Positions 1 to 14,513 of a stretch of 23,946 nucleotides of DNA are shown here, in pieces. Numbering within the stretch: the first letter of the stretch is position 1; each line of letters opens with the position of its first letter. The DNA comes from a virus: positions 1 to 23,946 of the IMG/VR virus record IMGVR_UViG_3300017776_000187; one strand, given 5' to 3'. The position numbers were made by a program, and so were the translations under genes. The notes under the pieces are model-generated. The model saw nothing but the letters and a program-made list of their open reading frames with translations, was not told where the DNA came from and searched no databases.

Positions 1-3000
1 GAAACACCAGATTCATCTTCTATTATTTGATTCATTTCTGACTCTAAGCTTATAGAAAATGCTCCAGCTTGTTCTACTTTGTTTTTAACATCTATAACAT
101 TTAAAACATCTCTAACAGCTTTTACATTTTTAATAGCGTCATCAGCAAAATAAAAGTTATTATATCCTTGAGCAGCTTTACCTAATATCCAATCAGCTTT
201 TGCTTCTGGTTTTCCATCAGCTAAACCTACTATGTTATTCATAGGTATGTTTAAACCTATACCTTTTAAAAACGCGTGTATTGCGTAAGCGGCTTCTTGA
301 GGCCTCGCTGTTAATATAAATATATCTTTACTAGTAAACTTATCTTGTCTTCTTGTGGCTAAATCAAATAAAGGTCCTTTTCTACCTTCAATAACCTCGT
401 TAAATTCTCTAAAATTAAATACAGCACCAGCAGCTTCTAGATCTGCAGATTGCAAAGCAAATTCTGTAGCGTTTATTTTAATAACACTACCATCAGGCAT
501 GTTAACTATAACTTGACTATTTGTTTGCGCAAGCGTATCATCAAAATCAAAAACACTAATACCTTTTATAGGTGAGTTAGGATCTCTAGCAACATCTAAA
601 GCAGCTTGCATATTTTGAAAAGTTTGCACTTGCTCTTGTATTGTTTGATCTTCTCTTACTACTATAGAAAAACTAGCGTTATCTTTTTTCATTTGCTGCA
701 CGGTGTTATATATCTCTACATAACCTTGACCATATACTTTACCATCTCTAATATCTTTTATAGCAAACTGAACTTCACCTTTAGTAAACATATTATAATA
801 TCTTTTACTAGGGTGCATACCTATTTCGTAATCAATAGTCATAGTAGATCCAAAATATTTTCCTATTATATTATCCATAGATATAGGTATTATAGCTACA
901 GAGTAATCGTTTAGTAGTGTGTTAATATCTACGTCCTTGTTATTTTTTAAATAAGATTCAGCCATGTAAAAAGCAACAACTCTAGCTGGTATTATATGTT
1001 CATACCTATAATCTTTAGGGTTTTTTGAAGGCTTAACAGTACTTATGTATCTGTAAGCTGCAGCCGCTCTCAAAGGTGTCTTCATGTTACCTAACAAACC
1101 AGCCACAGTCATAGCTTGGTTTATCTTTGTATATCCTTCTCTTTCAGAGCTCATAAATTCAAACGTATCTTTTAAAAACTGTTGAGCTTCTTTTGCTTTT
1201 ATTTCACCTAGCTCTATGTTTTCAGTTTCGTTTAAATGGCTTTTTGTGACTTTTTCGTTTACAGTTTTTGGTTTAAATTCTTGACCATTTATAGTTATAC
1301 CACCTCTTATAGACGTAACATTAAAAGCAGAGTCAATAGAGTTTAACATGTTTATAAAATCTGCTTTGTTATCGTATATCATAGCTCTTTTACCTCTACC
1401 CGTGCCGTTTTCAAAAGCAGCTCTATTAGTATAAAGTAATTCTATAGTTTTTCTAGTACCATACTTGCTAGCTAAAAAGTTAACAAGTTCACCACCAATA
1501 TACTGTCTCTGGTTTTGAACATGTCTCTCATCTCTAAATATAGCTGCCATACCTTCTTTTAAACCAAAATAATTTGATATACTAAGATAATCATCCATTT
1601 GGTTATCTACACTATTTATGTATTCTTCTATCGTACCTGGAAACTCTCTATTTGTTTTCTTGTATTGCTCTTGTGCTAAGTTAAAGTTCTTTAGGTTTTT
1701 ATAAAAATCATTTATAATACCATTGATATAAGTTCCAAAAAATCCTTTACCATAAGCGTCGTTTAAAGCTCTACGAATAGCAGGCTTAGTCATACCAAGC
1801 TCATTTATGTTGTTAAAGAAGTTTTCTCTATAAAGATTAAACTGAGAAGATAGATCTGATGGCAAACTTTGTATTGCTATAGAAAAAGCAGAATCAACAC
1901 CTCTATCAATATCTTTACTGATTTGAGCTAAATAATTATCTGGTAAAATAAAACCTTGTATTTCGTTAACAGTGTTAAATCTATTAGCAACACTTTCATC
2001 TTGTATAACTTCCATTGTTGCGTCAAAAGCAAGTTCTTCAGCTAACGCTTCAGATAAAGCATCTTTTCTAGTTCCTCTCGTTGAAGCACCTAGCTTGTCG
2101 CTTAAAAAATAATCTACAAATTCTTGTTGGTTAAAAGGTTTTTTATTAAAAATAGCATTACCTTGTGGTGTTTTTTCTCTAAGTTGTTTACCGTCTTTAT
2201 CTAGTACAGGAACTGCAAATTGTTTAAACCTTTTGTTTAAAGTGCTTTGAGGTAGCGCGTCGTAAATAACTTTAGCGTTACTAGTTACAAAATTAATATA
2301 ATTACCTCTTGTTCCAATACTCTTTTTTATTGTTTTAAAAAGCTCAGTTCTAAAGTTATCTTGTAGAGATTTTTTAAAAGCTTTTGTGCCAACTTGAGGT
2401 AATCTTATACCAAACGTTTTTACTACAGCTTGCTTTATTTTGTTGTAAAGCGTACCGTCTTTTTCTATATTTAGTTTTTTTCTTAAGCTTTCTTTTGTTA
2501 CTACTTGTTCTTGTACTGTTTCCTCAGCAACAACACCTCTTGCTTCCGTTACATCTATAGTAAACTTTTCTCCTAATACTCTATTAGCAGCTTCTATAGC
2601 TCTACTCTTTAAGTATTTATTTATGTAGGCAGCTAAAGGAACTTTTGACTCGGGATTGTAAGCCATCATTAAATCTAAAACACCTCTTCTACCAGTTAAT
2701 ATTTCTTCTATTAAAATATCTTTATTAATATCAAAATCAGGAACGCCAGAGTATTTATTAGCTATTTTTCTAGCCATAGGCTTATATAGGTTTATTATAT
2801 CCATAGCTCCTTCTATACCCTTACCTTTATATATTTCTTGCACTTGATCAGATAAAACTATAGAAAAACCATTTAGTTCTTCTTCAACACCATCTTCTAT
2901 TTCTTTACTTTTTCTAGCTGGTAATTTTAAAGTTCCTAACCCGGCAAATTCAGATGTACCATTAAAAGCGTTATACTTTATCATAAAAGATAATAAATCT

Positions 3001-5975
3001 TCTTCAGTCATCTTATTAAAATCTAGCTCAGTACGATTAGGTAAATAATCTTTAAACTTTTCCGCAAACAGTCTTTTGACTTTTCTTAATGCTCTAACAG
3101 CAACTGGATCTAAAGCTACTTGCTCGGCTTCTATATTTCTTAAAGCATCTGACAAACTTGTAAAAAATTCTTGTTGTCCTATTTTTGTATTTAAACCATA
3201 GCCTCTTGTTTTATATGCTTTCAACCTTCTTTCAAGTATACTACCTACTCTTTGAAGTGTTGTGTCGTTTGAGTTTTTTAAATTATCTAAAACACCTTTT
3301 GACAATGCTTGTAATTCTTTTGTATTAAAATTATCTAAAACAAAATGTAAACCCTCGTGGTGTATAACATTAGAACCAGATAAATCGTTCATGTTATTTA
3401 TACCGTTGTCAACTCTATCATCAAGAGCAAAAGCTTGATTACCTATTTTAACACCATAAGAATTGCCTTTTAAAAACTGATTCATAGTGTTAGACTGAAG
3501 CTCTTTTAACTCTTGTTCTAATGTTGACTTCTGCTCTTTACTTATGTTTTTGTCTTTTAAAGATTTTTTTATACCTGTTATTCTTTTAGACACATAATTT
3601 TTTAACTGATCTACGGTTTCAAATATACGCATAGATTTACCACCAAACACGCCATCATTACCGTTTATATATTTAGCAAACAACTTACCTGTTGACTTGT
3701 ATATACCAGCGGCTCTAAGCTTAGTGTTAGCATCTAACAACTCTTTTATATCTTCGTTTAAGCTGTTCGTTGCTTTTGTTTTATCAATACCAGTAATATC
3801 TTTATCGTTTTTAAGATCTTCTTGTTGTTTAAGTAATCTCTCTATTTTTATCTGGTTGTTGTATGCTTGTTTAAGATCTTTACCTTTTAAATATTTGTTT
3901 TTAGTATTTTTTAATACGTTTTCGGCTATTTCTAATTCAGCCATTTTTTCATTATATTGATCTAATGTATACGTACCTCTATCTAATAATGTTTTAAGAT
4001 ATTTTTTTCTACTATTAACTAAGTTTCTAACATGACCTTTATCATATTTAGCCATAAAATCAGCAGCTTGATCTTTACCAATAGTATAAGCACCACTTAC
4101 AGTTTTACCACCACCAACTAAAGTCAGTGTACTTAAAAGAGTTTGTATTGCTGTTTCACTATATCTTCTAACACCTTCCTCATCTTGCAAGTAATAACCA
4201 GGTGTTTGACCAGTTGCTTTTGAAACTTGATAATCGCTGTTTACTTCTTGAGCTAATTCTGTAGCAACTTCAGTACCTACACCAATAGCTATATCTTTAC
4301 CAAAAACTTTCCAGCCTTCTTTAGCAAACTGCGCCCATTTTTTTTGAACAGCAAATCTAGTAAACTGTTTAGGTAAAAACTTAACAGCTTTAGTACCTTT
4401 CAAAAAAACTACAAAATTACCAGCAAAATCTAAAGCGGCATTACCAAGTCCAGCTTTTTCTGCGGCAGCAACATCTACTAATCCCATATCTAAAGCTTGT
4501 CCCATGAACTTAGCCTTTTCTTCGTTGCTTAGTTTGTAAAAAGCTTCAGCTCTTTTACTATCATTTACTATATCAGGAAAAGCTAATTTACTTGCTTCAT
4601 ACATAGTCATTTCACCGTAAGCACCACTAAACTCTTGTAGATATGTTGAACCACCAAAAGACACAAGACCCAGCGCCATTTGACCTACCTGTGTACCCAT
4701 CATTTGTTGATATTCGTCAACATCAAAGTCAACATCCCAGTCTTTACCAAAAAACTGCGGAGCTCCTATTAGATTTATAGACTCTTGCATTTCTTGATTA
4801 TCTAAAAACTCAGCTGTTCTTTCGTTTTTAAGTTCAGCAAGTTTTCTCTTTGCTATAGATATAGCCTCTTCTCTATCGTTAGTTCTTATGTTTATTACAC
4901 CTGCACTTCTAGGCGCTTGCATTGAAGATGCTAACACATATTCACCATCTTTTGTTTTATATGAATCTACATTTTCTAAAAAATTATTATAATCACTTAT
5001 TCGAGTTGTAATACTTTTTACTTGCTGATTATTTAAACCCATTGATAACCGCTTCTTCAACTCATATAGTCCTATACCAAAGTCGCTACCTTCTAACCAA
5101 TCAGGTATTTCTTCAGATCTATTTTCTAGTTGAAGTTTTTCAGATATTGTTTGGTTAAATTTTTCATTTACAACATCTGAATATCTTGTCATTATGTTTT
5201 GATACTTCTCGTCTTTTAAAGCAGCGTCTTGTAGTATATTAAACTGAAACTGCTGCATGTCTTTCTCTGCAATCTTTAGTTCAGATGGATCATCTACATT
5301 ATATTTTTTTACTAATGAAAGTCCATAATCTTTTATTAAAGATTCGTTTGCGTTAAGTATTTTTTGGGAAAAATTATTTAGGTAAGGATCTTGTTCGAGA
5401 AGTTTATTGTATAAGTCTTTAGCTTGATCTTTTAACTCATCTGAAGTTAATGATCCTAATCTTCTAGCTACGCCTTTAGATGTGAGTTCGTATTTAGATT
5501 CTAGCAAACCATTGTCGTTAACTACATCTTCATTAGTAACATCATCTGAATTTTCTACAGGAGCATATATTTCTTGTTTTTGCCTTGCAATAATAGAGTC
5601 AGCTATGTTGTCTATGTTTTTATCGTCGTCTGATGTTAAAGAAACTAAACCTTTTTTCTTCATGCTACCTATGTAGTCTGTAAACTCCATATCGTATTTA
5701 ACAGCGGCATTTCTTAATTGCTCATCTGTGTAATCTACACCTTCTAGTCTATAACCTTTAGGTGGATCATAATCTAGCTCTTCCTCTTCTTCTTCAGGAT
5801 TATTAATTTTATCTCTCTTATATTCATCATAAGCAAAACTAGTTGCGCTTAAAAGTCCTTTTACAATAGGCGCGTATTTAGGCCCTAATAGAGCTTGTGC
5901 TACAGTTTGAAAAAACGGATCTTTCGAAGCTTTCTGCGCAACATCAGCTGGATTTTTTCTATCAAATTCTGACAT
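1..5975 (-). CDS. Giant multi-domain internal virion / polyvalent protein, C-terminus cut by window edge
   Basis: One frame stays open from an ATG at 5975-5973 to the left edge: 1991 codons and no stop, so the protein is partial at its C-terminus. The N-terminus is hydrophilic with a Glu run near residues 55-62. Hydrophobic or Gly-rich stretches lie at about 425-625, and a Lys/Glu-rich, coiled-coil-like region at about 630-800. An HExxH motif (H873, E874, H877) suggests a zincin metallopeptidase. Residues 1063-1134 resemble sigma-70 region 2. An EHIIP motif has its His at 1660. A HAD fold starts with DFDDT (1810-1814), continues with ILTAR (T1889) and ends with FADD (D1945, D1946). The gene follows two probable internal virion proteins after a 17-nt gap, matching the T7 gp14-gp15-gp16 order, so I infer packaging in the capsid and ejection with the DNA. 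A tape-measure role is less likely because no tail-tube genes are present. The frame is certain; enzyme activities are inferred from motifs. Confidence 0.9.
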   Translation of the reverse strand, partial: MSEFDRKNPADVAQKASKDPFFQTVAQALLGPKYAPIVKGLLSATSFAYDEYKRDKINNPEEEEEELDYDPPKGYRLEGVDYTDEQLRNAAVKYDMEFTDYIGSMKKKGLVSLTSDDDKNIDNIADSIIARQKQEIYAPVENSDDVTNEDVVNDNGLLESKYELTSKGVARRLGSLTSDELKDQAKDLYNKLLEQDPYLNNFSQKILNANESLIKDYGLSLVKKYNVDDPSELKIAEKDMQQFQFNILQDAALKDEKYQNIMTRYSDVVNEKFNQTISEKLQLENRSEEIPDWLEGSDFGIGLYELKKRLSMGLNNQQVKSITTRISDYNNFLENVDSYKTKDGEYVLASSMQAPRSAGVINIRTNDREEAISIAKRKLAELKNERTAEFLDNQEMQESINLIGAPQFFGKDWDVDFDVDEYQQMMGTQVGQMALGLVSFGGSTYLQEFSGAYGEMTMYEASKLAFPDIVNDSKRAEAFYKLSNEEKAKFMGQALDMGLVDVAAAEKAGLGNAALDFAGNFVVFLKGTKAVKFLPKQFTRFAVQKKWAQFAKEGWKVFGKDIAIGVGTEVATELAQEVNSDYQVSKATGQTPGYYLQDEEGVRRYSETAIQTLLSTLTLVGGGKTVSGAYTIGKDQAADFMAKYDKGHVRNLVNSRKKYLKTLLDRGTYTLDQYNEKMAELEIAENVLKNTKNKYLKGKDLKQAYNNQIKIERLLKQQEDLKNDKDITGIDKTKATNSLNEDIKELLDANTKLRAAGIYKSTGKLFAKYINGNDGVFGGKSMRIFETVDQLKNYVSKRITGIKKSLKDKNISKEQKSTLEQELKELQSNTMNQFLKGNSYGVKIGNQAFALDDRVDNGINNMNDLSGSNVIHHEGLHFVLDNFNTKELQALSKGVLDNLKNSNDTTLQRVGSILERRLKAYKTRGYGLNTKIGQQEFFTSLSDALRNIEAEQVALDPVAVRALRKVKRLFAEKFKDYLPNRTELDFNKMTEEDLLSFMIKYNAFNGTSEFAGLGTLKLPARKSKEIEDGVEEELNGFSIVLSDQVQEIYKGKGIEGAMDIINLYKPMARKIANKYSGVPDFDINKDILIEEILTGRRGVLDLMMAYNPESKVPLAAYINKYLKSRAIEAANRVLGEKFTIDVTEARGVVAEETVQEQVVTKESLRKKLNIEKDGTLYNKIKQAVVKTFGIRLPQVGTKAFKKSLQDNFRTELFKTIKKSIGTRGNYINFVTSNAKVIYDALPQSTLNKRFKQFAVPVLDKDGKQLREKTPQGNAIFNKKPFNQQEFVDYFLSDKLGASTRGTRKDALSEALAEELAFDATMEVIQDESVANRFNTVNEIQGFILPDNYLAQISKDIDRGVDSAFSIAIQSLPSDLSSQFNLYRENFFNNINELGMTKPAIRRALNDAYGKGFFGTYINGIINDFYKNLKNFNLAQEQYKKTNREFPGTIEEYINSVDNQMDDYLSISNYFGLKEGMAAIFRDERHVQNQRQYIGGELVNFLASKYGTRKTIELLYTNRAAFENGTGRGKRAMIYDNKADFINMLNSIDSAFNVTSIRGGITINGQEFKPKTVNEKVTKSHLNETENIELGEIKAKEAQQFLKDTFEFMSSEREGYTKINQAMTVAGLLGNMKTPLRAAAAYRYISTVKPSKNPKDYRYEHIIPARVVAFYMAESYLKNNKDVDINTLLNDYSVAIIPISMDNIIGKYFGSTMTIDYEIGMHPSKRYYNMFTKGEVQFAIKDIRDGKVYGQGYVEIYNTVQQMKKDNASFSIVVREDQTIQEQVQTFQNMQAALDVARDPNSPIKGISVFDFDDTLAQTNSQVIVNMPDGSVIKINATEFALQSADLEAAGAVFNFREFNEVIEGRKGPLFDLATRRQDKFTSKDIFILTARPQEAAYAIHAFLKGIGLNIPMNNIVGLADGKPEAKADWILGKAAQGYNNFYFADDAIKNVKAVRDVLNVIDVKNKVEQAGAFSISLESEMNQIIEDESGV

Positions 5976-5992
5976 GTGTTATTATTTAATCG

Positions 5993-7234
5993 TTATTTTG
6001 GATTTAAGGGGTCTTCTTCTTTTTTAGCTACTTCTTTTGGCCAGTAGCTAGGATCTACGCCCGCATATCTATATAGAACCTGTAGTGTTTTTGGATTGTT
6101 TAAATCATAGGCGCCCACGGAGGTACCGCTTTTTCCTATTTCGAGAAGACCTTCTTCAGTCACTCTCATGTTTATATTTGTTGGAAATAAAACTTCCAAA
6201 GCTGATACATCTTGTCCAGATATATTAGCCACAGCATCATCAATTAAACCTATATTTCTGTAAGCTTTTCTTTCGGTAGCAGTTGAACCTTTACCTCCTC
6301 CACTACCACTACTACTGCTTTTGGATCTAGGTCTGTTTTTAACTCCAAGCTTTGATTGTTTTAACAATATACCCATGTAGTTATCTACAACAACATCTCT
6401 AAGCTGAGCAAAAGGTATTTCACCAGAATTAAATCTATTTATTTGCTGTTGAATCATAGGGTCGTTAGCTAAAACAACATCACCAACTAATCCATCATGT
6501 AGTATAGACATTAATGTGTTTTTACCACCTTGATCTATAGCTGTTTTTAATTGATTTGATATTTGAAAATATTGAGGGTTTTCTTTACTTAAAGACAAAC
6601 CTGACTTGTAACCGTTTTGATAAACATCAACACCAAACTTAGTCATAGCGCTAGCTACATCATAATCTTTTATACCATAATCTGGTAGATCGCCCATTTT
6701 TATTTCACCATCATCTCCAATAAAAGAAAGATTACCGCTATCATCTATTTTAAGATCATACTCTTCGTTGTATACAGATCTTAATAAATTTATGTTAGCT
6801 TGGTTTTCACCATATAAAGAGGTTGTTTGGTTTTCAATATCTTCAATAATTGTTTTTTTATTGTTACCGTATATTTGAAACTGTTTATCTAAGTTTTCAA
6901 AACTGTTTTTTATATTATTCATATTAGAAACAGTTCGCATATAATCTTCAGCACCAACAACTAATTCATCTAATATACCAGCGTCTCTAACATATTCAGC
7001 TTTTTTATTTGTAAGAAACTGAGATATTTGACCTCTGTACTTATCAGGTATTTGAGTTAGATCCATGTCCTCAGGTAATTGTTTTAAATAATTACTAAGT
7101 TGTTGTTCGTATCTAGTTTTTACACTCATGACGGGGTTACCACTACCATTACCTTGGGTTGCTTCTTCGAAGCCAAGATCAAAAGCTGTCTTTGTGTCAA
7201 CTGACCTAAATGTTGAGTTATAATTTACATTCAT
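5993..7234 (-). CDS. Putative internal virion protein (413 aa)
   Basis: I do not recognise a named family. The protein is mostly hydrophilic and helical in character, with Asn/Gln- and Asp/Glu-rich segments (residues 1-300) and no membrane segment or signal peptide. A Ser/Gly linker at residues 304-317 (SKSSSSGSGGGKG) separates this part from a small C-terminal domain (320-413) that ends in charged, Pro-containing residues. It sits between a T7 gp14-like small protein and the giant multi-domain protein, so by position it would be the middle member of an internal/ejection protein set, comparable in place to T7 gp15, though I see no sequence similarity. The ATG at 7234 follows a 23-nt A/T-rich gap without a Shine-Dalgarno motif. 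The alternative is a tail or cargo protein of unknown role. Confidence 0.85.
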   Translation of the reverse strand: MNVNYNSTFRSVDTKTAFDLGFEEATQGNGSGNPVMSVKTRYEQQLSNYLKQLPEDMDLTQIPDKYRGQISQFLTNKKAEYVRDAGILDELVVGAEDYMRTVSNMNNIKNSFENLDKQFQIYGNNKKTIIEDIENQTTSLYGENQANINLLRSVYNEEYDLKIDDSGNLSFIGDDGEIKMGDLPDYGIKDYDVASAMTKFGVDVYQNGYKSGLSLSKENPQYFQISNQLKTAIDQGGKNTLMSILHDGLVGDVVLANDPMIQQQINRFNSGEIPFAQLRDVVVDNYMGILLKQSKLGVKNRPRSKSSSSGSGGGKGSTATERKAYRNIGLIDDAVANISGQDVSALEVLFPTNINMRVTEEGLLEIGKSGTSVGAYDLNNPKTLQVLYRYAGVDPSYWPKEVAKKEEDPLNPK

Positions 7235-7257: not shown

Positions 7258-7890
7258 CTATCCAAAACCACCAAAGGCTTTTAATCCAGCTGAAGCCATA
7301 CCCGTAGCTCCTTTTATCATCATTTTATCATTTGCCGCTTTTGAAGCTTGAGCTTTAGCTAAGTCTTGACCAGCAAAATTCATCATAGTTTCGTTCTTAC
7401 CCATTTCAGCTTCTCTTTGAGCGTAAGCTCCAGCTATTTCTTGTTGGTTTAATTTAGCTTGCTCATTTAAAGTGTTAGACTGTATTTGTTGTTCTTGGCT
7501 TCTCATATCTGCGGCAGCAGTGTTAGCATTTTGAGATTGCTGTTGCGACATAGCTTGTGCTAAAGCAGCAATACCAGATCCACCAGCAGACTGGCTAAAT
7601 TGATCCATTACGTTTGCTTGTTGTTGCATTTGTTGAGATTTTACAAACTCTGATGTTTGTTGATCAACAGTTTGATCTTCAAAAACGTTTTCTTGATCAG
7701 CATACATGTTAGAAGTGTCCATATTTTCATATTGCTTTCTTCTCATATCGTATTGACCTTGAGCTCTTTTCAACTCTCTTTTTGCTTTTTTACGACCTGC
7801 AAGCCCCATACCTAATTGAACCGCTGGGCCTATAAGTGCAGCCGCGGGTCCTATTTTAAAAGGAGAGGGTTTTTTCATTATTTTTTTCAT
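7258..7890 (-). CDS. Putative small internal virion protein, Gln/Ala-rich (T7 gp14-like layout)
   Basis: This 210-aa protein has a basic N-terminus, one hydrophobic Ala/Gly/Leu segment at residues 16-32, then a long Gln/Ala/Met-rich helical region (about 60-165) likely to form coiled coil, and a Gly/Ala-rich C-terminus with a further hydrophobic stretch (about 190-210). Size, hydrophobic start and Gln-rich helix match the general build of T7 gp14, an ejected internal protein that enters the outer membrane. The match is in architecture and position, not demonstrated homology. Two in-frame ATGs (7890 and 7878) are possible starts. The upstream one is used here because it adds the basic MKKI stretch and follows an A/T-rich leader. 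It is preceded by the 121-aa gene with a 29-nt gap. Confidence 0.85.
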   Translation of the reverse strand: MKKIMKKPSPFKIGPAAALIGPAVQLGMGLAGRKKAKRELKRAQGQYDMRRKQYENMDTSNMYADQENVFEDQTVDQQTSEFVKSQQMQQQANVMDQFSQSAGGSGIAALAQAMSQQQSQNANTAAADMRSQEQQIQSNTLNEQAKLNQQEIAGAYAQREAEMGKNETMMNFAGQDLAKAQASKAANDKMMIKGATGMASAGLKAFGGFG

Positions 7891-7919: not shown

Positions 7920-8285
7920 TTATTTACTAGATTCAAATATTTCTGAACCAACTGAATACAACTCAGCTTTTATAGTCGCGTTGTTTGTCATTTCTACCTC
8001 AGCATAATATCCTAACAAACTAGCCATATTAGCTCTATTATCTTTACCAAAAAAGAAAAAACTAGTACCTGTAGGTAAAGGTGTTGCGTTTTGAATATCA
8101 GCCGTTACAATACCTGTTACGTAATTTATAGCTGTTATAGCTCCAACTTCAATTATACTGTTACTGTGAGGTATTAAAGTACCATCTTGCATTGTGTCAG
8201 TACTAGTATTTACATAAAATAGTATATCACCTATCTGTACAGACTCGTTTAGCTCGTTATTAAAATTTACTGTTATACTTGGCAT
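7920..8285 (-). CDS. Small virion structural protein (121 aa), unknown role
   Basis: A compact, beta-rich protein with alternating hydrophobic and polar residues through about residue 85. Its C-terminal part, with KDNRANMASLLGYYAEV near residues 81-97 and SVGSEIFESSK at the end, resembles a conserved tail segment that I associate with small structural proteins of marine phages; that recall is unverified. It has no signal peptide, membrane helix or catalytic motif. It lies 10 nt after the fibre-like 625-aa gene, so an accessory role in the tail or fibre is a reasonable guess. Head decoration or an internal role cannot be excluded. Confidence 0.85.
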   Translation of the reverse strand: MPSITVNFNNELNESVQIGDILFYVNTSTDTMQDGTLIPHSNSIIEVGAITAINYVTGIVTADIQNATPLPTGTSFFFFGKDNRANMASLLGYYAEVEMTNNATIKAELYSVGSEIFESSK

Positions 8286-8295
8286 GTTTTATATT

Positions 8296-10173
8296 TTAAG
8301 GATTTTGGCCTAAATCGGCAAAGGTAAAGTCTAATCTCATTTGCAGCTGGTCACCCGAAGCAACAGCTGGCGTAAAGTTTGCTACTGTTAGTGTTCCAGC
8401 TACTGTTACAGACTGTAAACTATTATCTCCTAAGTTACTAAAATTAACACTTGAAACAGCAACTGTATATGTTGTATTAGTGTTAGATCTAAATTTAGCG
8501 CTACTTCCTACAGCTACAGGCGAAGCAGCTACTGTTACCTCACCTTGTGTGTCGGTTGATAAAGGTAAATCAGGTCTTGATATAGTAATATTTGAGAAAT
8601 TATAAACAACACTTGTGGAGTTAGCAGTTCTACCAGTTACAACAATTGTTTGACTATCAGGGAATATTAAGTTTGCAAAACCAGAATTTGTAATATCAGC
8701 AAACCTAGTTGTTCCTATTAAAAGAACATTGGAATTTCCAGAATTACTACCGCCAGCTACTGTAAAGTCGTCAATATCAAAATTTATACTATGATCAGAA
8801 CTACCGAATTCATTTGTATAATAAGACGTGCCTGTTATTGTTAATCTTTTATCAGCTTGTCCTAATTGATTGTTAGATATAGCAGCTGTTGTTGTGCCTA
8901 TGGTTAAACTAGCGTTTCCAGTTTCAGTTAAGTTTGATTCTGTTAATGTTAAAGAATTACCAAGTGTAGTACTAAAATCAAAAGTTTGATCATCTTCTAT
9001 AATAACAACATAATTAAACAAAGCTTGGCCATCACTACCTCCTGTTTCATGTAAAGGTGTATTAAATATTGGACCTTGAGCTGTGTGGGTTATTGGATTT
9101 CCTTGGTAGTCTGTATAAGCTCTAGTGTAAGAAGTAAAAGAACCTCTTGATGTAGATGTTACTGATACTTCAACCTTTTTAAAACCTCTTCTTTGTATTA
9201 TAAAAGGATTTGATTGACTTGAAGAAAGGTCTATCGTTGTTGGTGATTTTGGAATTATTTCAATATCATAATCATCATCAGCTAGTATTGTTGGAAAATC
9301 AAAAGGATGTTGAGCCTGACCGTTTGCTTGAACAGTAATAGTTCCTGTTTCTGCAGAACCTGTTTGAAAAACACCAGTAGTAAAATTAAAGAACTGATTA
9401 GCATTGTTTTTAAGTTGAAGTCTAAAAGTAGCACCAGGATCTCCAATTACAGTTATTGATCTTCTTGTAAAACTTAATGGCGTTACATCTACATTAGCAA
9501 TATATGCTGTTATTTTATTAGAAGCAGATGGTAAATCTTCTGCTCTTGCATTTATAGCTATAACATCACCTGATACGTTTTCAGCTGGTATGGTAGCATC
9601 TACGTTTACAACCATAGATGTAAATGATGTTCCAGTGCCGTTAGGTGTTTTAGTTACAATGTAATTAGCAACGTCACCAGTAGTTACAGTTACTGTAGGC
9701 TCTTCAATAAAATAATGACCGTTAGTTGCGGCTAGTGTTATTTGAAATAAATCTTTAACTTGTCCTGTGGATCCACTTGCTGTATAAGTTGAGGCTGACA
9801 CAGCTGTAACATCACTGACGGTTACACTGTACGAGCCAGCTATTGTTTTAGGAATATCCTGCTCTCTAAGAGCTCTACCATCAATATCGATTGTAACTGT
9901 ATGATCACTTGTTCCTGGGTTAAATGTATCTTTTAAATCAACAGTAACTAAAACTAAGTTGTCAGCGGCATAAGCGGTGCCTGCGTCAGCAATTGTTATG
10001 CTATTTATAGAAGTTGGTAAAGTGCCAGTGTTGTTTGTAAAATCAACCGCAGCAACTCTAAAACCTTGATCAGGTCTTATCGTTAAAACTTGATTAGCAA
10101 CGCTATTACCTAGTTGAGTTGATGGATCAACTTGAACTGAACTTGAATTTATAGTACAATTATTTAATGCCAT
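8296..10173 (-). CDS. Ser/Thr-rich beta-sandwich repeat protein, probable tail fibre/appendage or surface decoration
   Basis: The 625-aa product is dominated by Thr, Ser, Val, Asn and Gly in alternating beta-strand patterns, with several stretches of roughly 90-110 residues that look like Ig-like or similar beta-sandwich modules (for example around residues 60-130, 225-310 and 420-500). No cysteines stand out, and there is no catalytic motif. Such proteins in phage structural modules are usually fibres, tail appendages or capsid decorations that bind cell-surface glycans. The start codon overlaps the stop of the 1446-aa gene by one base (TAATG), so translation is probably coupled and the two products may assemble together. 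The exact role and the number of repeats need structure prediction. Confidence 0.85.
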   Translation of the reverse strand: MALNNCTINSSSVQVDPSTQLGNSVANQVLTIRPDQGFRVAAVDFTNNTGTLPTSINSITIADAGTAYAADNLVLVTVDLKDTFNPGTSDHTVTIDIDGRALREQDIPKTIAGSYSVTVSDVTAVSASTYTASGSTGQVKDLFQITLAATNGHYFIEEPTVTVTTGDVANYIVTKTPNGTGTSFTSMVVNVDATIPAENVSGDVIAINARAEDLPSASNKITAYIANVDVTPLSFTRRSITVIGDPGATFRLQLKNNANQFFNFTTGVFQTGSAETGTITVQANGQAQHPFDFPTILADDDYDIEIIPKSPTTIDLSSSQSNPFIIQRRGFKKVEVSVTSTSRGSFTSYTRAYTDYQGNPITHTAQGPIFNTPLHETGGSDGQALFNYVVIIEDDQTFDFSTTLGNSLTLTESNLTETGNASLTIGTTTAAISNNQLGQADKRLTITGTSYYTNEFGSSDHSINFDIDDFTVAGGSNSGNSNVLLIGTTRFADITNSGFANLIFPDSQTIVVTGRTANSTSVVYNFSNITISRPDLPLSTDTQGEVTVAASPVAVGSSAKFRSNTNTTYTVAVSSVNFSNLGDNSLQSVTVAGTLTVANFTPAVASGDQLQMRLDFTFADLGQNP

Positions 10174-13100
10174 TAGTCGTTGTTTTCGTTTATTGTTATA
10201 GTTACTTTATTAGTGTAATCATTACTAGCTGTTACGGTTCCACCACCTAAACCTTGAACACTGAACTCACTTGTGTCTATATTTTCAGCTGTGGTTTGTG
10301 TTCCTTGTATATATTCAAACCATTTTCCTTCTTTTTCTTTGAAACTAACCACGTTACCTTCTTGTTTGTCTGAAGTTATAGTATTACTCCACCAACCAGC
10401 TCTTGCGACTCTATTTTCAAAAACATTATCTGAATCACTTCCTGAGTCTATAAATATTCTAGAATCAGAACCTTCATAGTTAAGAGTTTTAAATTGCTTA
10501 ACGGAACCAGAAACTTCGTTAAATATAAATTTAATACTAGAGTTATATTGAACACCATAAAAATTGTTTCTAATTTCATTATCGTGTACCCAAGGTTCTC
10601 CAAATTTAAATGAATAATATAAATTATTTAAGCTTACACCTGCTTCTTGTAAAAAGCTTTTTCTACTTGACCAAGCATTTGTTGTTTCTTTAAAACTAGC
10701 GGTATCAAAATTTAAAGTTAAATTATAAGATTTTTTATTTGTATCATAACTTCCTATAGCTGTAGTCGCAATAGCTAAGTTATCTTTAAAATAATCAGAC
10801 ATACCATATCTTGATATAGGTTCTAATCCATCAGCAGATAATCTTAAAACAACTCCTCTTGCTTTGTCTGTAAAATAAGCTCTATATCCGTATTGAGCAT
10901 AAGATTCAGGGTTTTTACTAATTCCAAACTCACCAGAATAAGGAGTAGCTGTACCTAATACGTTAGAAGAAACTGTTACTTGCTTGCTTCCATCAGCTGT
11001 AAATAATATATCTTTGTTAGTAGGTAGTTTAAAACATTTATCTTCACACAATACATCTAAGCCACCGTGTCTATGTCTCATTAACTGTATTGAACCATAT
11101 ACTGGGTTTAATGATTTAGTTATCTGATCAGCTTGTATAAATTGATTTGTGTTGTTAGTACCACTTATAGAGTTATATAATCCAGAGAATATAACTTGAT
11201 TTGTTTTTCTCTCTTCAGCATATGGTGTATCTAAAACAGTATTAGCTTTTATACCTTTAGGTATTGTAGGAGCGTTAAAATCATCTCTAATTCTATTTGA
11301 CTCAACCCCATTACCAAAACTAAAACAATTTGAATAATTAAGTGTTACTTGACTACCATGTGTACTTTTATTGTAGGCTTGACTAGCTTCATAGAATAAA
11401 TTTAAATCAACAACTTCTTTTGGTTCAGTTTCAAATATAGCTGGATTATTACTAGTGAAACCATCACCATCCATATAAGGATCTAAAAACTCTATAGAAG
11501 TTGCTGTTGCTTTTGAATTATGGTTATTATCACCTGGAACCCAAAGTAGCTGCTTGTCTAATTCTAAACTAAAACCTATAAGTCTTTCACTACCATACTT
11601 ACCGGCATACATTCTTCTTCCTCTATTATAAGGAACATAATAATTTCTTCTATATGCTTTTATAGTATAAACTGTTTGATCTGGATCATCTGCAAACCTA
11701 AACTTTGAGTTTTTCATCTCCATCAGTGAAATAGCTTTTTTAAACTGAGGTCTATAGTCTCTCTCAAAGTTATTCCAGTGACCCCATCTAGCGCTTCTAT
11801 CTTTACCTCCCCACCAATGGTAAGCTATTTCTATAAAGTTATTACCTGCTACAGCGCCTAAACCACCAGCTTGTCTAGCGGCGTTAGCTGTAGCGTGCCT
11901 ACCTTTGTACTTACCACCACCTGTTAAAGAGGTATCGTATGTACCACCACCATCTCTATATCTGTACATTACTCCCCAGTCAGCTATATGCCACTCAGCT
12001 GATCTTGCGCTTATACCTTGTGAGTGAGGATAACTTCCCTTGTTAGAATCTTGCCACCATGATTTACTAGAGTTTTGATTAGTTCTCATATCATAAGTAG
12101 GTAGTGTTGATGCTATTTTGTAGTCGTCAGGATTCTCGTTTCTCAATATAGCCTGTTCTAATACTCCGTCTCTTTCTATTTTAGTAAAAAATCTACCAGA
12201 AAATTCTGGTTTTACTTTCATTTGTTTTTGAGCTATCTCCATTGATATAGAGTCGTTAGCAGCGTCAAACTCTGTAGCATCACTATGTCTTGTAAACCTT
12301 ATATCGTCTTCTTCAAACCTTTCTTCTATTTCAACTCTGTAAAACCTGTTGTTTGAAGTTCCATCATCAAAATATTGTATATTTGCAATATTATAATATT
12401 TAGAAACACCTCCATTACCTAAAAATCTAAGAACTAAATCAGATAGTGAATGAACAGGTACTTGAAACATGTTACCATGCCTATTACTTGGGTCTGCGCC
12501 ACCGAAAACTTTTTCCCACTTAACTCTATTTACGTTAACATGACCACCGTCATCTTTTGGAAAACCATCTAAATCTCTAAATATATTTTCACCTGTAGTA
12601 TCTGTGTTAACAGCTGATAAAATACCTTTAGAAACTTTATCTTCTTTTAAAAATATAGGAGCTTCGTTTTCTATAGCTATAATTTTATATCTAGCTTCAT
12701 CTTCGACAAATAAATCATCATCGTGTGTTTTCTTTAATATTAAAAAAGTTTCTTCTGTTAATTTATTTCTTTCAGCAGAAGGAAAGCTAATCCAAACGTT
12801 ACCATCTTCAGCTTGATACCATCTATCCATTGCTACGTTATAATACTCGTCAGATGATTCTTTTACAAAATATTTATACGATTCAGCCCAATAAGGTATT
12901 GGACTAATTATACTAACCTGTATAACATTGTGTTGTATTGATGCTTCTTTTCCTAACGTAACAGAACCTGTCGGATCTGTAAATACAGGTGTTTCTCTTC
13001 CATATTTATCTCTATAAACAACACCTATTTGGTATGTTCTAATAGATTTTAATGACCTTTGAGGCTCTCTTATTTGAACAGGTATGTTTGTATTTTGAGT

Positions 13101-14513
13101 TATATTAACATTAAACTTGACACTTATATCATTATTAGAAGCGTCTTTAATATCAAAGTTTTCTAGATAATTACCATACATTATTCTATTAGCTGACATA
13201 GCTTGAGCTTTTGCTAATCTAGGCACGTTATCATATGGTCTTAGAGATTGTATTGCTGGTAAAACTTTAAATATAACATCTGATGTTATTTCAATTTCAC
13301 CGTTGGTTCCAGCTGTATATTCTGGATCAGATTTTTTAATGCTTTGAACTATATATAGATTGTTGTTAGAACTTTCTTTATATATTATGTCTATTTCTTT
13401 TACTCCAAAAGGAGCGCTAGCTGTAAAACCTCCTATTTTTAATGACCTTAGAGTGTTAACCATACCTTTATTATAACCTTTTTTAGGATCGTAATCAAAA
13501 TCACTTGGTAAAAAAGCAACCTGTGTATAAGGACCTATTGCTGAATATTCATTATCATCGTATTTATATCTATAAGCAAATTGAGGAAACTTAAATTCAA
13601 ATACAGCTTTTTTCTGAACTAAAACTGCAGACCAGTTTTGAAGATCATCAGCTATATCCTCAGGCATAACATCTATATTTATTTTAAATGTAGAAGTCTG
13701 TGTTGGAAAAACCTCAACTATACTTATTATTATTTCTTCATCTTCCTCTTCTTCTTCAGCGTCTAAAACTTTAATTTTAATTTTGTCTCCAACTATAAAA
13801 TTAGCTGCAGATGTAAAAGTAAAATTGCTATTACCGGTAGGATATGGACCTGTTGGTAGAGGTTCACCATTAGCATCTGTAAAGCTAGTCTGCATTAATG
13901 TAGTTTCTATTATACCACTTCTTAATGAGTTAGACATCACTATGCTAGGCTCTGTAGTTGGAGCTTTTTTAATCATTGTTATTTGATCTTCTGTAAAAGA
14001 CGAGCCGTTTATTTGAGTATGTTGAAAAGACGCGTTTGATGCGTTGTAACCTCTCCAGGTTTTTATGTTTATTTTTTTAGGCTCTGTTCTATTGTCAGAC
14101 CAAAACAACAAGTCATCTATTATGTTTATACCTGTTATTTTAAAATTTATATTAAAATCTAGAACACCAAGAGCATCTACTAAAATAGGGTGATAATCGT
14201 TTAAAATTTGATCATACTCTATTATAACAGACTTGCTATCACTAGCAACAAACCAGTATATTTTTTCGTTTTTAGTATCAGTAAAAACTCCAACAGTCTG
14301 AGGATTATTGCCTAATAAACCTTTTTGTCCTTGTAAGCTGTCACCATAAGGTAATCTGTTACCAAGAACATTTTGCACAGCACCAACATCTGAACCTTCA
14401 GAGCTTGATACTTGTATGTTTAAAGCATCTCTATATTGACCATTAGGAACTAATCTTTCGTCGAGGTCCTTGTTCATAGCACCTCCACCAAATTGTCTCT
14501 TTAATTCTGGCAT
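10173..14513 (-). CDS. Large tail nozzle/muzzle-like protein (1446 aa)
   Basis: The N-terminus (residues 9-50: Gly-rich, then NKDLDERLVPNGQYRDALN and a conserved VGAVQNVLGN) looks like the start of large phage tail nozzle or stabilisation proteins, which open with a beta-propeller (P22 gp10 and T7 gp12 are functional analogues). The rest alternates aromatic-rich beta-strands with many Trp, Tyr and Asn residues and no membrane segment. Residues 253-260 form an acidic run of Glu/Asp, probably a surface loop. Length far exceeds T7 gp12 (about 790 aa) but is in the range of the muzzle protein of crAss-like phages as I recall it. It follows the adaptor gene after one base (TAATATG junction) and overlaps the fibre-like gene, consistent with tail-tip assembly. 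Nozzle is the best call; a very large tail-hub protein is the alternative. Confidence 0.85.
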   Translation of the reverse strand: MPELKRQFGGGAMNKDLDERLVPNGQYRDALNIQVSSSEGSDVGAVQNVLGNRLPYGDSLQGQKGLLGNNPQTVGVFTDTKNEKIYWFVASDSKSVIIEYDQILNDYHPILVDALGVLDFNINFKITGINIIDDLLFWSDNRTEPKKINIKTWRGYNASNASFQHTQINGSSFTEDQITMIKKAPTTEPSIVMSNSLRSGIIETTLMQTSFTDANGEPLPTGPYPTGNSNFTFTSAANFIVGDKIKIKVLDAEEEEEDEEIIISIVEVFPTQTSTFKINIDVMPEDIADDLQNWSAVLVQKKAVFEFKFPQFAYRYKYDDNEYSAIGPYTQVAFLPSDFDYDPKKGYNKGMVNTLRSLKIGGFTASAPFGVKEIDIIYKESSNNNLYIVQSIKKSDPEYTAGTNGEIEITSDVIFKVLPAIQSLRPYDNVPRLAKAQAMSANRIMYGNYLENFDIKDASNNDISVKFNVNITQNTNIPVQIREPQRSLKSIRTYQIGVVYRDKYGRETPVFTDPTGSVTLGKEASIQHNVIQVSIISPIPYWAESYKYFVKESSDEYYNVAMDRWYQAEDGNVWISFPSAERNKLTEETFLILKKTHDDDLFVEDEARYKIIAIENEAPIFLKEDKVSKGILSAVNTDTTGENIFRDLDGFPKDDGGHVNVNRVKWEKVFGGADPSNRHGNMFQVPVHSLSDLVLRFLGNGGVSKYYNIANIQYFDDGTSNNRFYRVEIEERFEEDDIRFTRHSDATEFDAANDSISMEIAQKQMKVKPEFSGRFFTKIERDGVLEQAILRNENPDDYKIASTLPTYDMRTNQNSSKSWWQDSNKGSYPHSQGISARSAEWHIADWGVMYRYRDGGGTYDTSLTGGGKYKGRHATANAARQAGGLGAVAGNNFIEIAYHWWGGKDRSARWGHWNNFERDYRPQFKKAISLMEMKNSKFRFADDPDQTVYTIKAYRRNYYVPYNRGRRMYAGKYGSERLIGFSLELDKQLLWVPGDNNHNSKATATSIEFLDPYMDGDGFTSNNPAIFETEPKEVVDLNLFYEASQAYNKSTHGSQVTLNYSNCFSFGNGVESNRIRDDFNAPTIPKGIKANTVLDTPYAEERKTNQVIFSGLYNSISGTNNTNQFIQADQITKSLNPVYGSIQLMRHRHGGLDVLCEDKCFKLPTNKDILFTADGSKQVTVSSNVLGTATPYSGEFGISKNPESYAQYGYRAYFTDKARGVVLRLSADGLEPISRYGMSDYFKDNLAIATTAIGSYDTNKKSYNLTLNFDTASFKETTNAWSSRKSFLQEAGVSLNNLYYSFKFGEPWVHDNEIRNNFYGVQYNSSIKFIFNEVSGSVKQFKTLNYEGSDSRIFIDSGSDSDNVFENRVARAGWWSNTITSDKQEGNVVSFKEKEGKWFEYIQGTQTTAENIDTSEFSVQGLGGGTVTASNDYTNKVTITINENND

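Follow-up and report, generated by a model that had tools for sequence, protein, structure and literature searches.

A giant predicted multi-enzyme protein encoded behind the virion genes of a marine crass-related phage belongs to a widespread family of probable polyvalent proteins

Introduction

What could a single reading frame of at least 1,991 codons be doing at the end of a phage's virion gene cluster? The question is raised by the window studied here, i.e., the whole stretch of DNA analyzed, a 23,946-base virus record in which the late genes all lie on the minus strand in one cluster. An earlier reading of the letters alone (here, the sequence-only reading) had described in this frame a giant multidomain protein. 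Of the features it listed, the frame itself, a zincin (HExxH metallopeptidase), a HAD domain, and the neighboring genes proved to be present, whereas the hydrophobic stretches are weak and the likeness to sigma factors is distant. The analysis below places the protein in a family that is a widespread, undescribed version of the phage "polyvalent" proteins, an already known class.

Extent of the giant frame and its relatives

The frame of at least 1,991 codons is real; it starts with an ATG and remains free of stops up to the contig edge, the stop codon lying outside the contig. Its overall layout is as follows.

3..5975, minus strand: giant polyvalent protein, 1,991 aa visible, 3' end outside the contig
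5316..5753, minus strand: N-terminal block, residues 75 to 220, common to relatives L024, L027, and L077
1836..2498, minus strand: helical block, residues 1160 to 1380, present in part of the family

Because the ORFs of L024, L027, and L077 begin at the residue-75 block, residues 1 to 74 of the window giant are an N-terminal extension. The absent 3' portion is the family's most conserved part, and an exact search found no contig overlapping and extending the gene. The hydrophobic stretches of the sequence-only reading are weak: across the visible part, no 19 consecutive residues average more than 1.06 on the Kyte-Doolittle scale, so there is no clear transmembrane helix.

The whole giant gave no match as a query against PDB sequences or in a direct scan of viral contigs. 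Against 50,697 deposited phage records, tblastn returned no match either for the window giant (E ≤ 1e-5) or for a family HAD domain (E ≤ 0.01). The sole PHROG match was a weak one to polynucleotide kinase in the C-terminal portion (E = 9.5e-4); Pfam matches to COG2_C and CCDC-167 were discarded as coiled-coil noise.

After the failed whole-protein scan, relatives were sought via the muzzle (tail-tip) protein and then via the HAD alignment. The muzzle scan of IMG/VR led to 42 loci, and in whole-record searches the giants adjoining those muzzles matched the C-terminal part of the window giant. The HAD-alignment scan returned at least 590 matching stretches, 80 of which were kept; in these loci, the HAD domain sits inside very long ORFs. 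Most complete relatives, all from contigs of marine viruses, measure about 2,200 to 4,400 aa, and those beside the muzzles about 2,500 to 4,400 aa; the nearest relative (L077, ORF of 2,406 aa) aligns over residues 75 to 1991 of the window giant. Across the family, the N-terminal and central regions diverge far faster than the tail. Two loci (L049 and L081) that looked like a natural two-gene form of the giant were dismissed, as frameshifts explain the splits.

At their very C terminus, the giants of L050, L052, L055 to L058, L060, and L064 carry tandem Cys/His-rich units (L055 to L058 were not all checked in full), and this end of the L057 giant is matched by PF19067 (DUF5763; E = 2e-7). Related phages also encode GroEL/GroES (L044, 6679-8307 and 8264-8569; L178, 24233-26046), and several contigs carry ORFs resembling these.

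Cultured relatives of the window phage infect Flavobacteriia, which are probably the hosts of these phages. Assigning a host from genome contigs was abandoned, the matches being scattered across unrelated MAGs (Alphaproteobacteria, Aliivibrio, Woesearchaeota, and Flavobacteriaceae), mostly on short contigs, and taken as misbinned phage. The phage-family fragments L155 to L167 come from MAGs labeled Alphaproteobacteria, Aliivibrio, Woesearchaeota, etc., and are likely misbinned.

Gene neighborhood and virion context

The minus-strand cluster runs through terminase, portal, probable scaffold, MCP, ring/tail proteins, muzzle, and small proteins to the giant; the source phage is marine, crass-related, and probably short-tailed. 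The genes ahead of the giant that matter here are the following.

10173..14513, minus strand: muzzle (tail-tip) protein of crassvirus type (PF25729, E = 1.8e-8; phrog_14478, E = 1.6e-151)
7258..7890, minus strand: 210-aa Gln/Gly-rich internal virion protein in the first ejection/cargo position, homologous to phi40:1 gp99
5993..7234, minus strand: second ejection/cargo position, encoding 413 aa, with homologues in phi46:3 (gp118) and Panino

The muzzle seems to be split in three in the window, as the genes for a 121-aa (7920-8285) and a 625-aa (8296-10173) protein are fused to the muzzle in relatives (L002, L023, and phi38:1 gp97).

Phi38:1, phi40:1, Gundel, elemo, and Panino all keep the order terminase-portal-scaffold-MCP-ring-muzzle-cargo-giant, although Gundel shows a local rearrangement. 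The 210-aa protein has homologues in phi40:1 (gp99, 2.7e-26), Gundel (gp072), and elemo (gp20). In phi40:1, gp097 to gp101, including the same-position giant gp101, are annotated "based on experimental MS/MS proteomics analysis." The earlier placement of the giant after two probable internal virion proteins is therefore borne out, both genes being present and the 210-aa product being homologous to MS/MS-annotated gp99. For the giant itself the proteomic support is positional only, because phi40:1 gp101 is not significantly homologous to it; neither this protein nor the near-identical phi38:1 gp101 gave a significant match to the window giant. Virion packaging and polyvalent membership are well supported overall, and we infer packaging of the window giant itself from synteny.

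The giants of the cultured phages are related to the window protein to different degrees. Phi40:1 gp101, Gundel gp074, and elemo gp18 all occupy its place behind two ejection-type proteins, and elemo gp18 shares the zincin region with the giant family (3.8e-8) while Gundel gp074 shares the family tail (5e-11). Unlike the window giant, none of the three has a significant HAD match, and gp101 of phi40:1 and phi38:1 also lacks HExxH. Two deposited giants in the equivalent position are probably misannotated, one as a tRNA methyltransferase (PP540027, 28228-33717) and the other as a reticulocyte binding/rhoptry protein (MW202828, 741-12320).

Crassvirus cargo proteins have been detected by MS and, in part, by cryo-EM; in crAss001 both capsid and tail hold such proteins, and partial unfolding is thought to accompany their ejection (PMC10172136). 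The window locus resembles crAss001 gp45, gp46, and gp47 in its muzzle-cargo-giant order, the large proteins being virion stored in crAss001 (PMC10172136). The two differ in that crAss001 gp47 is described as RNA polymerase associated (PMC10172136), whereas the window giant has no polymerase signature. This comparison bears on whether the giant could be, by analogy with gut crassviruses and N4, a virion RNA polymerase or one of its subunits. Its genomic position matches that of large crassvirus cargo genes, and a zincin is also carried by the N4 vRNAP (PMC5512222). Against such a role, a pattern search found no DxDGD-type RNA polymerase catalytic motif in the family giants, no T7-type catalytic motif was found, and no polymerase family matched the window giant or three relatives. 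Among the profiles, PF00623 is no fair negative for phage RNA polymerase, as it misses the known phi14:2 enzyme too, and PF00940 matched no control and so is not evidence of absence. We regard a polymerase as extremely improbable.

Metallopeptidase domain

Upstream of the HAD domain lies a predicted gluzincin.

3126..3488, minus strand: gluzincin metallopeptidase, residues ~830 to 950, with invariant H873, E874, H877, and E936
3345-3359, minus strand: codons of HExxH, residues 873 to 877; third ligand E936, codon 3168-3170

In 94 giants the sequence reaches far enough ahead of HAD, and 88 of these carry exactly one HExxH, compared with 0.008 per giant expected from shuffling; it lies 823 to 1,431 aa (median, 984) upstream of HAD. 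The six HAD-bearing giants without HExxH are L103, L123, L124, L134, L142, and L146. In a 39-sequence alignment the invariant columns are H873, E874, H877, E936, E1659, and H1660; since the 39 rows were selected for HExxH, the invariance of that motif is partly by choice, that of E936 and of E1659 H1660 being unaffected. The zincin active site is under strong constraint, as judged from the alignment, because mean column identity between zincin and HAD is just 15%. In a medium-confidence model, helices span residues 867 to 880 (HExxH) and 931 to 945, the second carrying E936, the expected third zinc ligand.

Pfam matches to the domain are weak and spread across M78, SprT-like, DUF3267, M90, M4, and M61. 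Foldseek of the zincin fold against PDB gave no significant match, the search being dominated by the 1,161-residue helical query; with the large models, i.e., zincin containing and HAD plus tail, nothing was retrieved at E ≤ 0.001. With both HExxH and the later-helix Glu present, and invariant in 39 aligned relatives, the metallopeptidase call stands as solid, and the domain is predicted from its sequence to be a metal-dependent protease.

HAD phosphatase and EH domains

Two further conserved domains follow toward the C terminus.

3..572, minus strand: HAD phosphatase, residues 1802 to 1991, with D1810, D1812, T1814, T1889, K1926, D1945, and D1946
696..1148, minus strand: "EH" domain, residues 1610 to 1760, with invariant E1659 H1660 (codons 996-1001)

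The four HAD motifs, i.e., I (D1810, D1812, and T1814, within DFDDT at residues 1810 to 1814), II (T1889), III (K1926), and IV (D1945 and D1946), are invariant in 15/15 aligned sequences. Most of these members have HAD-superfamily Pfam matches: 12 to DUF2608, which from its clan assignment we take to belong to that superfamily, and 9 to HAD. The best match to Pfam Hydrolase has an E value of 2.7e-5. In the model of relative L084 the HAD core is Rossmann-like, and Foldseek gives its top probabilities in PDB to HAD-type proteins, among them the Nir2 C-terminal domain (0.89) and a class C acid phosphatase (0.57), with E values that are not significant for a query of the whole 877 residues. The HAD phosphatase call is thus solid, and the domain is very probably catalytically active. 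Action on nucleic acid ends or nucleotides can be proposed tentatively, as somewhat less than an even prospect. In L061, L062, L063, and L065, HAD motif I lies ~75 to 230 residues upstream of the rest, suggesting an inserted segment.

Could the giant instead be a purely structural ejection protein, T7 gp16-like by position, that forms a DNA channel and retains its enzyme-like domains as relics? Its gene comes third in the row, behind those of two internal virion proteins, the family tail is all-helical, and the same-position giants of phi38:1 and Panino have neither HExxH nor the HAD motif. That every catalytic residue of both zincin and HAD is invariant despite such low identity in the region between them argues against relics, and we consider this reading improbable.

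The EH domain carries a previously unreported Glu-His motif in a further conserved domain, the pair being invariant in 39/39 sequences of the main alignment and in 29/29 of a separate one. No homologue was found in PDB; the domain is possibly another enzyme.

Conserved tail and polyvalent class

After HAD, the relatives continue into a helical tail, mostly ~650 to 790 aa, that is cut off in the window; judging from the L077 sequence, the window giant would carry a similar one. Mean column identity is 52% in the HAD-plus-tail alignment, and L077 and L084 are 69% identical over this stretch. Against BFVD, the HAD-plus-tail model of L084 matched MuF C-terminal (7.6e-9), PolyVal ADP-ribosyltransferase (3.5e-8), ART-PolyVal-like (8.6e-8), large polyvalent protein associated domain (6.4e-7), and an elemo structural protein (1.6e-4). 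No Pfam LPD family matched the giants at the curated cutoff. The proposed membership of the polyvalent class is supported by this tail fold of the relatives, together with the MS/MS annotation of the syntenic phi40:1 giant, and the window protein is very likely a virion-packaged polyvalent cargo.

Like the polyvalent proteins of Iyer et al. 2017 (PMC5512222), the giant is very long, multi-enzyme, and encoded near late virion genes, and it has a zincin with HExxH plus a downstream Glu; it combines in one polypeptide two unrelated predicted enzymatic domains, zincin and HAD, with both active sites complete. It differs from them in adding the HAD, the sigma region 2-like segment, and the EH domain; the words haloacid, phosphatase, and sigma do not occur in the main text of that paper. 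Three deposited proteins, A0A218MMX7, A0A218MLT5, and A0A7S9STY3 (Virus NIOZ-UU157), share the HAD-plus-tail module at 35 to 50% identity; they are deposited as uncharacterized, and we found no functional description of them.

Sigma-70 region 2-like segment

2526..2798, minus strand: sigma-70 region 2-like helices, residues 1060 to 1150 (hmmsearch of PDB and hhalign)

Residues 1060 to 1150 resemble sigma-70 regions 2.1 to 2.3. When a 13-member profile of the segment was searched against 177,635 PDB sequences (hmmsearch), the top two matches were sigma factors (E = 0.019 and 0.11), and RpoH was likewise among the matches. In an hhalign comparison with region 2 of four E. coli sigma factors, the probability was 87% (E = 3.9e-6, as calculated for one comparison), compared with <0.5% for control slices elsewhere in the giant and 27% and 9% for two slices overlapping the segment. 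The Pfam region 2 family (PF04542) weakly matched 2 of the 13 members (best E = 0.015), the window giant itself being unmatched. By eye, the alignments do not retain the RpoD W433/W434 pair of region 2.3, mainly one Y/W position being kept. The iterated profile found the segment in 34 ORFs only, and it is not common to all members. Even with E values up to 1 admitted, Pfam showed no region 4 in the visible giant.

The segment is a probable distant homologue of sigma region 2, as far as these profiles indicate. The likeness first noted by the sequence-only reading is therefore real, if distant, without region 4, and not family-wide. Its further step, that the protein engages host RNA polymerase, is a guess, because the match is distant, region 4 is absent, and sharing is incomplete; contact of this part with RNA polymerase seems unlikely. 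Still less likely is that the giant delivers a sigma region 2 mimic that is freed by the zincin and binds host RNA polymerase at entry. If true, phages without a recognizable virion polymerase would redirect or silence host transcription ahead of any phage gene expression.

Discussion

The whole explanation that we consider reasonably probable is that the giant, an enzymatic and self-processing protein, closes an ejection/cargo set as its large member, behind the 210-aa and 413-aa proteins. It would be packaged in the head and threaded out via portal and muzzle, either before the DNA or together with it. Refolding would follow in the envelope or the cytoplasm of the host, and the helical tail would act as a putative packaging/ejection module. 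The zincin would most likely release the domains by cleaving its own polypeptide, either during assembly or once the protein has entered the cell, and the HAD might strip phosphate from a small molecule or nucleic acid end in the newly infected cell. Where present, the sigma-like helices may be a docking element for host RNA polymerase, or they may be just structural.

No domain is commoner in polyvalent proteins than the zincin, which was proposed to process its own polypeptide, be it ahead of packaging, inside the head, or once injected, with targeting of host proteins as the alternative (Iyer et al. 2017, PMC5512222). The earlier suggestion that the protein cuts a host protein is sound as to the domain, while self-cleavage may be its role, as Iyer et al. 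propose. On balance we lean toward self-processing rather than host cleavage, because the zincin active site is near-universal in the family. An injected effector, with the zincin cutting a host protein and the HAD dephosphorylating a host or defense signal, has in its favor that host targeting is the alternative zincin role of Iyer et al. (PMC5512222) and that the N-terminal and central parts outpace the tail in divergence, as arms-race regions would. Near-universal active-site residues, however, suit a housekeeping task, e.g., processing, better than lineage-specific host targets; we hold an effector to be possible and rather doubtful. To call the delivery system unusual, as had been done, was an overstatement, since injected polyvalent and crassvirus cargo proteins were already described (PMC5512222, PMC10172136).

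The family is common, with at least 590 IMG/VR matches, yet neither tblastn query found it among the 50,697 records of deposited phages, and we found no description of it. Its invariant EH domain is a possible further enzyme. With catalytic residues identified as targets for mutation, the family offers a case, open to experiment, of a multi-enzyme protein that abundant ocean phages, probably of Flavobacteriia, would inject.
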